The notes beneath the pieces are model-generated. The model did no database searches and was not told the origin of the DNA. It was given only the letters and a program-made list of their open reading frames with translations. Position numbers and translations under genes: made by a program. Positions 48,619 through 53,024 of a stretch of DNA of 64,000 nucleotides are shown here, piece by piece (positions within the stretch are counted from its first letter, which is position 1; every line of letters begins with the position of its first letter). This stretch comes from Rothia nasimurium (GTDB lineage Bacteria > Actinomycetota > Actinomycetes > Actinomycetales > Micrococcaceae). The DNA lies in assembly GCF_928381705.1 (NCBI RefSeq), contig NZ_CAKMSR010000004.1, positions 124,001-188,000 of the forward strand, in the 5' to 3' direction.

Positions 48619-49071
48619 TTAGAGCTCCCAAGCCTCAATAATGACACGCTTGAAATCTTCGATATCAAGTGCCTGGTCGAGCACGCCGCTACCTTCTGAG
48701 GTCTGTACAGTCATCTGAGGCTCGAAGGTGAGGGAAAATGAGGTGCCGTTCGTGGACTCTAGGCCAAACGAAAACTCTGAAAGAGTGAAGGTACGTGCGG
48801 CGTTGGTGTTATCGATCGAGGTGGGCGTGCCGGTACCGCGAACTTCGGGTAGAGAGAGCGGGGCAATGACGGCCTCTCGTGGGGTATCCCTGTAGCCAAT
48901 GAGGAAATGGCTTTGACCCTCTTCCTGGCGGGATGCTACATCGGGGTTTCGGTAGATAGATGAACCTGTAGCAAAAACCAGGTTGTAGGCCCCATAGTTA
49001 ATAATCTGACTATCGAAGACAGTATGCAGGGCCTTGGCGATTTCACTACTGGTGAGCTGGGGTTCAGTCAT
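48619..49071 (-). CDS. Hypothetical protein
   Basis: 150 aa, soluble, with no signal peptide, membrane segment or Cys. Recognisable only as a globular alpha/beta protein: SSEIAKALHTVFDSQIINYG, a central SHFLIGYRDTPREAVIAPL, and a beta-rich end, FSFGLESTNGTSFSLTFEP. No family recognised. A TAGACT box 6 nt before the ATG supports it being a real, leaderless gene. It stands alone between tRNA-Lys and the ilv leader. Confidence 0.65.
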   Translation of the reverse strand: MTEPQLTSSEIAKALHTVFDSQIINYGAYNLVFATGSSIYRNPDVASRQEEGQSHFLIGYRDTPREAVIAPLSLPEVRGTGTPTSIDNTNAARTFTLSEFSFGLESTNGTSFSLTFEPQMTVQTSEGSGVLDQALDIEDFKRVIIEAWEL

Positions 49072-49077
49072 GTCATC

Positions 49078-49083
49078 AGTCTA
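49078..49083 (-). promoter_or_regulatory. Probable -10 box of the hypothetical gene at 48619-49071
   Basis: TAGACT on the minus strand followed by gatgac and the ATG. Fits the leaderless pattern seen elsewhere in the window. The rest of the 431-bp gap, up to about 49244, shows nothing recognisable. Confidence 0.5.
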
Positions 49084-49244
49084 CGTGCTATAAGTGTTAT
49101 CTTGCCCAGAAAAGTACTGCTGATTGCCTAAAAGTCTTTAAATGACAATGTGCAAGTTTGTGTCGACTCGCCGAGATTGAGGCGCAGAGGCTTCCTTGTA
49201 GTGTCTTGATGTGTGAAAATGTTGTGTCACATTCTAAGACCGGT

Positions 49245-49274
49245 TTGACCGGTGTGCCCTTGAGCACCAAGAAT
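49245..49274 (+). promoter_or_regulatory. Probable ilv operon promoter
   Basis: TTGACC (49245-49250), an 18-nt spacer and AAGAAT (49269-49274), ending 7 nt before the ATG of the leader peptide at 49282. The transcript would begin at or next to that ATG. The -10 box matches TANNNT except at its first base. Confidence 0.5.
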
Positions 49275-49281
49275 AAAGGGT

Positions 49282-49347
49282 ATGACAACACGCCAGCAGT
49301 CACAGATTATTCTTGTGGTGCGACTCGTGAACGAGTGCGCAGCATAA
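49282..49347 (+). CDS. ilvB leader peptide (branched-chain amino-acid attenuator)
   Basis: 21 codons: MTTRQQSQ, then IILVVRLV, then NECAA and TAA. Seven of eight residues in the middle are Ile, Leu or Val, the regulatory amino acids of ilvBNC. Ribosome stalling there when Ile, Val or Leu charging is low would free the downstream antiterminator. The only Shine-Dalgarno-like sequence (aaaggg) is one base from the ATG, too close, so the leader itself is probably translated from a leaderless mRNA. Too short for standard gene calling. Confidence 0.85.
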   Translation: MTTRQQSQIILVVRLVNECAA

Positions 49348-49406
49348 GTCTTTGATGTGTCTTACGGCGTGCGCACCCTTCGCTCAACCAAGCGGAGGGT
49401 TTTTTT
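49335..49406 (+). terminator. ilvB attenuator: antiterminator and terminator hairpins
   Basis: Terminator: cccttcgct (49376-49384) with agcggaggg (49391-49399), one G-T pair, 6-nt loop, then seven T (49400-49406). Alternative: gtgcgcagcataag (49335-49348) can pair with cttacggcgtgcgcac (about 49361-49376), overlapping the leader stop and touching the terminator's left arm. This mutually exclusive pair is the layout of ribosome-mediated attenuation. Confidence 0.85.
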
Positions 49407-49502
49407 CTAGGTTTATACCGCAACCCGGCACTACCTACACCCAACGGGCGTACCCATCCGCTCACACACAAGATCATCTTCAGACCATCGCGAGGATCAC
49501 CA

Positions 49503-51341
49503 ATGACAGCGGGAAATCCCATCAACCCTGCAGATCTAGCTAAAAACCTGGGCAACCGTAGCAGCTCAGAAACCTCACCGGTAGAGCGCATGACCGGCTC
49601 TCAAGCCATCGTCCGCTCCCTCGAAGAACTGGGTGTAACCGATATCTTCGGCCTGCCCGGCGGCGCGATTCTGCCCACCTATGACCCCCTCTTTGATTCT
49701 GAAAAGCTCAACCACATCCTGGTGCGCCACGAACAGGGGGCAGGGCACGCAGCAGAAGGCTACGCGATTGCCAGCGGTAAGGTCGGCGTAGCTATCGCCA
49801 CCTCGGGCCCCGGCGCCACCAACCTGCTCACCGCCATCGCAGACGCCAATATGGATTCTGTGCCCCTGGTGTGCATCACCGGCCAGGTCTCTTCAAAGGT
49901 GATTGGCACCGACGCCTTCCAGGAAGCCGACATCGTGGGCATGACCATGCCCATCACCAAGCACTCCTTCATGGTGCGCGATGCCCAAGAGATTCCCCGC
50001 TGCATCGCCACCGCCTTCAAAATCGCTGCAACCGGCCGACCGGGCCCCGTCCTCGTTGACATTACCAAGGACGCCCAGCAGGGCATGATGGACTTCTCCT
50101 GGCCGCCCGCTAACACCGACCCCCGCGGCTACAATCCCGTCACCCGCGGCCACTCCAAGCAGATTCGCGAAGCGGCCAAGCTTATTACCGAGTCCCAGCG
50201 CCCCGTCCTCTATGTAGGCGGCGGTGTCGTCCGCGCTGAAGCGTCCGACGAGCTGCTCAAGCTTGCTAAAACCATCGGTGCCCCCGTCGTCACCACCCTG
50301 ACCGCCCGCGGTGCTTACCCCGACTCAGACCCCCAGAACCTGGGTATGCCGGGCATGCACGGTACGGTACCTGCTGTAACCGCCATGCAGAAGTCTGACC
50401 TGCTTATTGCCCTGGGTGCCCGTTTTGACGACCGCGTCACCGGCGTCGTCTCGGAATTTGCTCCGCACGCTAAGGTCATCCACGTCGATGTAGACCCCGC
50501 AGAAATCTCAAAGATTCGTATTGCCGACGTACCCATCGTGGGGGATCTGCGCTACGTGCTTCCCGAGCTTAACGAGATTCTCGAGGGCGAGTTTGCTTCT
50601 GAACTTCCCGACCTTTCGGACTGGTGGAAGCTGGTTAATCGGTTCAAGGAAACCTTCCTGCTGGGCTACACCAAGACTGACGACGGCCTGGGCTCTCCCC
50701 AGTACGTCATCGAAAAGCTGAGTGAGCTCACCGGCCCCGATGCCTACTACGTCACCGGTGTGGGCCAGCACCAGATGTGGGCAGCCCAGTTTATCCAGAG
50801 CGAAAACCCCCGCCACTTCATCAACTCAGCGGGTCTGGGCACCATGGGCTTCTCTGTTCCCGCTGCAATGGGTGTCAAGGTTGCCTTCCCCGACTCCGTC
50901 GTATGGGCTATTGACGGTGACGGTTGCTTCCAGATGACCAACCAGGAACTAGCTACCTGCGTGCAGAACAACATTCCCATCAAGGTTGCCATCATCAACA
51001 ACTCTTCCCTGGGCATGGTGCGCCAGTGGCAGAACCTCTTCTACGATGGGCGCTACTCCAACACCCATCTCAAGACCGGCATGGGTACCGAGCGAGTACC
51101 TGACTTCGTCAAACTGGCTGAAGCCTATGGTTGCGCCGCCCTACGCTGTGAGAGCGATGAGGATGTTGAGGAAACCATCAAGCAGGCCCTGGCCATTAAC
51201 GACCGTCCTGTCGTCGTGGACTTCAACGTCAGCCCCGATGCCCTGGTCTGGCCTATGGTGCCCGCGGGTGTGTCCAACGACCAGATTCAGATTGCTAAAG
51301 ATATCTCACCCTCCTGGGGCGAAGATGAGGAGATGCTATGA
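49503..51341 (+). CDS. ilvB: Acetolactate synthase large subunit
   Basis: 612 aa, gagga 7 nt before the ATG. The ThDP enzyme shows [33 protein letters not shown] with the catalytic Glu, [12 protein letters not shown], and the ThDP-binding [19 protein letters not shown] (GDG...NN). It condenses pyruvate with pyruvate or 2-ketobutyrate as the first step of Val/Leu/Ile synthesis. An N-terminal extension of ~28 residues precedes the domain. Controlled by the attenuator at 49282-49406. Overlaps ilvN by ATGA. Confidence 0.97.
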
Positions 51342-51847
51342 GCCGCCACACCCTCTCGGTTCTTGTAGAAGATAAGCCCGGCGTGCTGGCCAGAGTCTCA
51401 GGCCTCTTTGCCCGCCGCATGTTTAATATTGACTCCCTGGCCGTGGGCCCCACCGAAGTTCCGGGTATCTCCCGCATTACCGTAGTGGTGGACGCAGAAG
51501 GGGTGCTTCTAGAGCAGGTGACCAAGCAGCTCAATAAGCTGATTCATGTGCTGAAGATTGTGGAACTGCCCGATGAACAGTCGGCCCAGCGCGACCACAT
51601 TCTCATTAAGGTCAAGGCGGACGCGGCAGCCCGCATCCAGGTCACCCAGGCCGCCGACCTCTTCCGCGCCAAGATTGTGGACGTCTCTACCGAGTCCGTC
51701 ATTATCGAGGCCACCGGCTCTGCCAATAAGATTGACGCCCTGCTTGAGGTGCTTGAGCCCTTCGGCGTCCGTGAGATTGTGCGCGCTGGCACCATCGGGC
51801 TTTCTCGCGGCCCCCGCTCCATGAGCGAAAAGGCCCTGCGCGGCTAG
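51338..51847 (+). CDS. ilvN: Acetolactate synthase regulatory subunit
   Basis: 169 aa. The N-terminal ACT domain reads [37 protein letters not shown], and a second small domain contains [16 protein letters not shown] and [19 protein letters not shown]. It activates IlvB and gives valine feedback inhibition. Start ATG inside the ilvB stop (ATGA), so it is translationally coupled. Confidence 0.96.
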
Positions 51848-51953
51848 GCGAAGAGCCGCCCAAAAATATCGTTCCAAAATATGAAACCTGCGTCTCAAAA
51901 TCAGCCGAACCTACTAGGCTAGAGACTAACGGTTCATCACAACCAAGGTTTAG

Positions 51954-53024
<1,071 letters not shown>

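Follow-up and report, generated by a model that had tools for sequence, protein, structure and literature searches.

A very probable leaderless leader-peptide attenuator of ilvBNC in Rothia nasimurium and the conservation of its promoter geometry among relatives

Attenuation of ilv operons through a leader peptide with Ile, Leu and Val codons is a kind of control already known in actinobacteria (PMC1262725, PMC10272879, PMC13236596; papers are cited here by PMC number for excerpts of their text), and leaderless ilv leader peptides have already been reported in three strains, one each of Corynebacterium glutamicum, Corynebacterium diphtheriae and Streptomyces lividans (PMC11857589, PMC5784534, PMC8079986). 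In C. glutamicum the ilvBNC RNA starts one nucleotide from the leader start codon, and expression dropped by 80% when that codon was changed from ATG to AGG (PMC11857589). The leader codons of Streptomyces coelicolor ilvB, on the other hand, were changed without effect on regulation (PMC1262725, citing earlier work).

Here we analyze an ilv leader in a 64,000 bp stretch of R. nasimurium DNA (the window, from whose first base all coordinates are counted). The operon, its promoter and the leader ORF are as follows:

49503–51341, + strand: ilvB, acetolactate synthase large subunit (NF005860, 1043 bits, cut-off 881)
51338–51847, + strand: ilvN, acetolactate synthase small subunit (NF008864)
51996–53024, + strand: ilvC, ketol-acid reductoisomerase (NF004017)
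49245–49250, + strand: -35 hexamer TTGACC (promoter-pair scan, 9 of 12 together with the -10)
49269–49274, + strand: -10 hexamer AAGAAT (xAxxxT), 18 bases from the -35
49280–49282, + strand: predicted transcription start, on the first base of the ATG or up to 2 bases 5′ of it, placed from the -10 spacing
49282–49347, + strand: leader peptide ORF, ATG 49282 to TAA 49347, 21 codons, MTTRQQSQIILVVRLVNECAA (ORF list and translation)
49306–49320, + strand: control codons 9–13, Ile Ile Leu Val Val (read from the sequence)

The three genes are consecutive (49503–53024) with ilvB first, as judged by NCBIfam equivalogs. The 21-codon ORF that the initial annotation had placed upstream of ilvB is present and contains IILVV, so a short ORF in which codons for the operon's end products cluster lies 5′ of it; its stop codon is 49345–49347, and an intrinsic terminator lies between it and the first gene (below). 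Rfam searches of the whole window at gathering score and of 49200–49520 at E values up to 5 found none of the leader families that Rfam 15 contains, and so no covariance-model match for this leader.

The Corynebacterium precedent to which the initial annotation appealed is a sound one, as the C. glutamicum and C. diphtheriae data show (PMC11857589, PMC5784534). The C. glutamicum IlvL attenuator (Morbach et al. 2000 via PMC11857589) resembles the window locus in having an Ile/Leu/Val peptide (MTIIRLVVVTARRLP there) ahead of an ilvBNC operon, no ribosome-binding site, and anti-antiterminator, antiterminator and terminator hairpins, but it has 15 codons rather than 21 and belongs to another family, and the likeness is one of descriptions in which the window RNA start is a predicted one. 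The ilvB-II motif (PMC10272879) likewise consists of an I/L/V uORF with an ATG or GTG start, a hairpin (P1) and a terminator (P2), although it was described for the genus Corynebacterium and the window leader matches no Rfam family. In the C. diphtheriae ilvB leader, which is called leaderless, transcription starts at the leader start as predicted for the window, but the peptide (MNIIRLVVITTRRLP) and the family differ (PMC5784534). The S. lividans ilvL of ilvBHC was called leaderless from RNA-seq (PMC8079986), and the promoter spacing of 37 bases present in 20 of 20 Streptomyces loci (below) is that of the window; it differs in its 13-codon peptide (MRTRILVLGKRVG) and in a Shine-Dalgarno-like stretch before the ATG, and the named set of loci as a whole is without an antiterminator by our stall measure (below). 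The Mycobacterium tuberculosis ilvB1NC attenuator has an I/L/V uORF, an antiterminator plus terminator, and the same operon as the window (PMC13236596), but its uORF is not called leaderless in the excerpts of that paper, and the f6 leaders of our class set (below), which carry LVVI and are probably those of Mycobacteriaceae, have a spacing of 38.

The literature matches listed, with subscription journals mostly outside their reach, include no paper on an ilv leader peptide of Rothia, Arthrobacter or other Micrococcaceae and no statement of a spacing kept across families. What is new here is a predicted Micrococcaceae member of the leaderless ilv attenuators, together with a class-wide count of its geometry, and a mechanism reported for a few Corynebacterium and Streptomyces strains is thereby extended to the Micrococcaceae. 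The RNA elements on which the proposed mechanism depends are the following:

49323–49336, + strand: 1:2 hairpin ACUCG-UGAA-CGAGU, which masks strand 2 (minimum-energy fold)
49327–49341, + strand: antiterminator strand 2, core 49335–49341 (folding)
49370–49383, + strand: antiterminator strand 3, overlapping the terminator 5′ arm (folding)
49375–49406, + strand: intrinsic terminator, 10-bp stem (49375–49400) plus seven T (49400–49406)

We consider it very probable that together these form a ribosome-mediated transcription attenuator of ilvBNC with a leader peptide translated from a leaderless RNA. The ORF, the promoter spacing, the terminator, their conservation and the possible folds were obtained directly, and from them we infer RNA start, translation, stalling and read-through as follows: RNA polymerase would start at the ATG or no more than two bases from it, and a ribosome, presumably a 70S ribosome, would initiate at the 5′ end without a Shine-Dalgarno sequence. 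With ample charged Ile-, Leu- and Val-tRNA it would reach the stop codon and cover strand 2, and the terminator would form before ilvB. A ribosome waiting at codons 9–11 would instead leave strand 2 free to pair with strand 3 before the terminator 3′ arm exists, so that the polymerase could pass. With no ribosome at all, the 1:2 hairpin and the terminator would both form, and since the ribosome-free leader folds into the terminator, expression should also require translation of the leader. Such an attenuator would link the choice between termination and read-through to initiation without a Shine-Dalgarno sequence.

Two promoter-like pairs are present in 49000–49600, both scoring 9 of 12 (shuffle mean 0.6); one is the TTGACC-18-AAGAAT promoter originally proposed, at 49245–49274, and the other (49282–49310) sits within the leader ORF. 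The distance from TTGAC to the ATG is 37 bases and the gap between the -10 and the ATG is 7 bases, so an RNA start 6–8 bases past the -10 would be 49280–49282. For comparison, the mean -10 to start distance in S. lividans is 6.3 nt, and leaderless is defined there as 0–3 nt (PMC8079986).

Is this arrangement kept in relatives, as the comparison suggested with the initial annotation would require? We scored upstream regions of ilvB by a rule that asks for an ORF of 8–40 codons in which some stretch of seven residues holds four or more I/L/V, and whose ATG or GTG lies 35–37 bases from the initial T of TTGA(C/T); the controls were the reverse strand and dinucleotide shuffles (40 rounds). The 35–37 spacing was chosen after the first three sets had been viewed (30–44 was allowed then), so that the fourth set, drawn from the class Actinomycetes, alone tests it on new data. 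All 35 genomes of the window's own genus have an IlvB match, and 34 upstream regions remained after exclusion of L116, whose IlvB match starts at residue 98. The rule holds in 33 of these 34 (shuffle mean 0.2, largest 2; reverse strand 0), so that at least four I/L/V in seven residues occupy a fixed place there. Among other Micrococcaceae, where 55 of the 112 other-genus members with a match were taken (30 genera, with one or two members each), it holds in 45 (shuffle mean 0.075; reverse strand 0), and among the named loci in 46 of 80 (shuffle mean 0.075; reverse strand 1); the named and unnamed Micrococcaceae sets overlap in species, and these two counts are not independent. In the fresh class set, 40 taken from 85 matches outside the family and covering 29 families, the rule holds in 25 genomes and in 21 of the 29 further families (shuffle mean 0.1, at most 1; reverse strand 0); the non-matches are the two f6 leaders at spacing 38 and 13 with neither. 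Peptide, promoter spacing and terminator (below) are conserved in relatives. In the 33 leaders of the own genus that meet the rule, the -35 context is TTTGAC in 32 (TTTGACC in 21) and CTTGAC in 1, and the best-scoring -10 hexamer, searched for at gaps of 4–10 from the start codon, ends 6, 7 or 8 bases before that codon in 13, 19 and 1 of them, respectively. All 20 Streptomyces loci have the peptide MRTRILVLG(K/Q/R)RVG at spacing 37, and ten of them have exactly the S. lividans peptide. By these counts, a single architecture is likely across much of the class. It is possible, although we advance it only tentatively, that in much of the class the ilv attenuator has held its start codon at the point where transcription begins, ATG and GTG replacing one another there, so that the operon would sense both charged Ile/Leu/Val-tRNA and the capacity for leaderless initiation; without leaderless initiation the operon would then be switched off, since the leader folds into the terminator when no ribosome is on it.

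The exceptions to the rule are of several sorts. The sole failure in the own genus, L114, has an ATG 36 bases from TTGAT and fails just the I/L/V requirement; by eye it keeps the promoter spacing, the ATG and a terminator-like hairpin and has few Ile/Leu/Val codons, so it is possibly a decaying attenuator. L156 has an I/L/V ORF and no TTGA(C/T). Among the 80 named loci there are 34 misses. In 30 of them an ilvD-type gene ends immediately 5′ of ilvB (by a motif check; three of the 30 were matched to dihydroxy-acid dehydratase by profile), so that ilvB is not the first gene and a leader is not expected; the other four (L028, L060, L061 and L079) lack the motif. The leader is missing mostly in Microbacteriaceae, with ilvB right after an ilvD-type gene (for example L004, L025 and L050), and the attenuator seems from this gene order to have been lost or moved where ilvB is not the first gene.

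The purine-rich stretch one base from the ATG in the window, seen already in the initial annotation, is AAAGGG, which is too close to the start codon for a Shine-Dalgarno sequence. An RNA start well upstream with a usable ribosome-binding site would have spoken against leaderlessness; in the own genus no such binding signal is seen, since pairing of bases -19 to -5 with the 16S tail has an energy of -2.58, where random sites give -2.84 and 18 ilvB starts -5.82, and values of -5 or better occur in 5 of 33 leaders compared with 17 of 18 ilvB starts. Such a stretch is present in the DNA of the other genera: the corresponding energy is -5.48 (random -3.34; -5 or better in 29 of 46) in other Micrococcaceae and -9.56 (random -3.19; -5 or better in 42 of 46) in the named loci, which makes leaderlessness less certain outside the own genus. 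This is a purine-rich Shine-Dalgarno-type stretch located roughly where the -10 element lies (L117–L171 and L001–L080; other Micrococcaceae and Streptomyces). It would be absent from the RNA if transcription begins at the start codon, as reported for S. lividans and, putatively, in the Arthrobacter-like genera likewise. The spacing between promoter and start codon is maintained although the peptides vary widely, and seven of the 33 own-genus leaders (L098, L101 and L103–L107) have GTG at the same spacing, some of them with an in-frame ATG downstream. The first 30 bases of the leaders fold slightly less well than shuffles (-1.96 compared with -2.51), which in this model leaves the 5′ end open. 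A leaderless reading of the window leader is therefore well supported by comparison, the RNA 5′ end at the ATG being predicted from the -10 spacing.

The terminator with seven T that was noted ahead of ilvB is present (49375–49406); folding of 49372–49410 has a z of -4.8 and that of the whole leader a z of -6.1, with 0 of 200 shuffles as good. The ribosome-free leader has the 1:2 hairpin and the terminator together in its minimum-energy fold. Strand 2 can pair with strand 3 (49327–49341 with 49370–49383) at -23.8 kcal/mol, which takes the terminator 5′ arm, so a competing pairing does exist, but the two hairpins are not mutually exclusive at equilibrium as had been claimed. The 7-bp core (49335–41:49370–76) shares two bases with the terminator, and in the fold of 49335–49410 a hairpin on nearly the whole core coexists with it. 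When ribosomes were modelled at 22 positions, with 13 bases covered past the centre of the A-site codon, the finished terminator had an equilibrium probability of 0.93–0.98 at all of them, so exclusion can only be a matter of timing and is kinetic at best. In the model, while the terminator 3′ arm is still missing, strand 2 stays free when the ribosome is at Ile9, Ile10 or Leu11, and upstream bases sequester 0.73–0.74 of the 5′ arm (49377–49384); the value falls to 0.30 at Val12 and 0.11 at Val13, where the 7-bp core still forms (0.98), and is 0.16 at the stop codon. Sequestration with the ribosome at codons 4–8 (0.71–0.83) is as high as at Ile9–Leu11, so the modelled fold responds to any early stall in the ORF, and the control codons are what would cause such a stall.

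Counted with a fold-based finder, a terminator follows the ORF in 33 of 33 own-genus leaders, 43 of 46 in other Micrococcaceae and 45 of 46 in the named set. A finder that allowed loops of at most 12 bases chose wrong stems in Arthrobacter-like leaders and none in L104, L105 and L107 of the own genus, and its antiterminator counts were discarded. The stall measure used across leaders places the ribosome on the second of the control codons and counts the whole 5′ arm. By it the 33 own-genus leaders have a mean sequestration of 0.62 when stalled, 0.46 when shuffled and 0.28 at the stop codon (0.79, 0.47 and 0.38 for the window leader); 29 of the 33 have a stalled value higher than the shuffled mean, and 32 of the 33 have one higher than the stop value. 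Twelve of the 33 are clear at 6 of 60 shuffles or fewer, but eight of these are L082–L089, which are nearly identical and hence not independent cases. The same measure gave 0.12 stalled compared with 0.37 shuffled in other Micrococcaceae (43 leaders, stalled above shuffled in 3) and 0.06 compared with 0.40 in the named set (45 leaders, above in 2); the hairpin that forms behind a stalled ribosome in the models for these genera does not engage the terminator arm. The analysis thus gives the antiterminator moderate support from modelling in the own genus and none by the stall measure in other genera, Streptomyces included, in agreement with the reported lack of effect of leader-codon changes in S. 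coelicolor ilvB (PMC1262725).

Among 12 close leaders the terminator has 98% of cells paired and no compensated pair, the antiterminator 87% and one compensated pair (each of its outer five pairs is broken in 1–4 leaders), and the 1:2 hairpin 88% and one compensated pair, with no clear covariation. The pairs appear conserved rather than covarying; covariation is weak, in leaders too alike to decide the matter. In three of the 12 the ORF carries insertions, of 3 or 6 bases, that keep the reading frame.

Three other readings of the locus have to be weighed against a leaderless attenuator. That the ORF lies by chance beside an ordinary terminator and has no regulatory role might be entertained because short ORFs are common, but 33 of 34, 45 of 55 and 25 of 40 loci meeting the rule, against shuffle means of 0.2, 0.075 and 0.1, in effect refute it. 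A classical leadered attenuator, with RNA starting further upstream and the peptide initiated from a Shine-Dalgarno sequence, would explain the Shine-Dalgarno-like energies before the start in other Micrococcaceae (-5.48) and in the named set (-9.56). The own-genus energy nevertheless equals random (-2.58), a leadered RNA has no need of a constant spacing between TTGAC and the start codon, and S. lividans ilvL, whose peptide (MRTRILVLGKRVG) is that of 10 of the 20 Streptomyces loci, was reported leaderless from RNA-seq (PMC8079986); we regard this reading as improbable.

Less improbable, but still unlikely in our estimate, is that the terminator is a fixed or differently controlled attenuator, with the peptide translated and its codons not setting read-through, as suggested for S. 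coelicolor ilvB. The S. coelicolor codon mutants (PMC1262725), the weak exclusivity of the hairpins at equilibrium and the lack of any sign of an antiterminator by the stall measure in other genera all point that way. The I/L/V clusters are nevertheless kept across families while flanking residues vary, the own genus does show the predicted effect of a stall, and in C. glutamicum replacement of three Val codons by Ala removed valine-dependent expression (PMC11857589), all of which speak against this reading.

One further element lies just 5′ of the -35:

49225–49239, + strand: box TGTCACATTCTAAGA (by eye; similar boxes in genus and family)

In the region corresponding to 49225–49250 a box, TGTCACATTCTAAGACC in the window and often ...TGAGAC... 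in other Micrococcaceae, can be seen by eye a short distance 5′ of the -35 in many leaders. The window box matches the published NdgR/LtbR consensus (PMC8222616) at 13 of 15 positions (2 mismatches), although matches to this consensus occur at chance level in the window (150 found, 138 expected), and the best IclR-type gene of the genome falls outside the window. From its sequence and position the box may be an NdgR/LtbR-type (IclR family) operator or an upstream promoter element.

Finally, in four Arthrobacter-like leaders (L126, L127, L146 and L167) the end of the ORF (AGCGCGTG, the codons of KRVA) pairs with ACGCGC directly 5′ of the terminator, so the conserved KRVA C-terminus may have been kept for the RNA rather than for the peptide.
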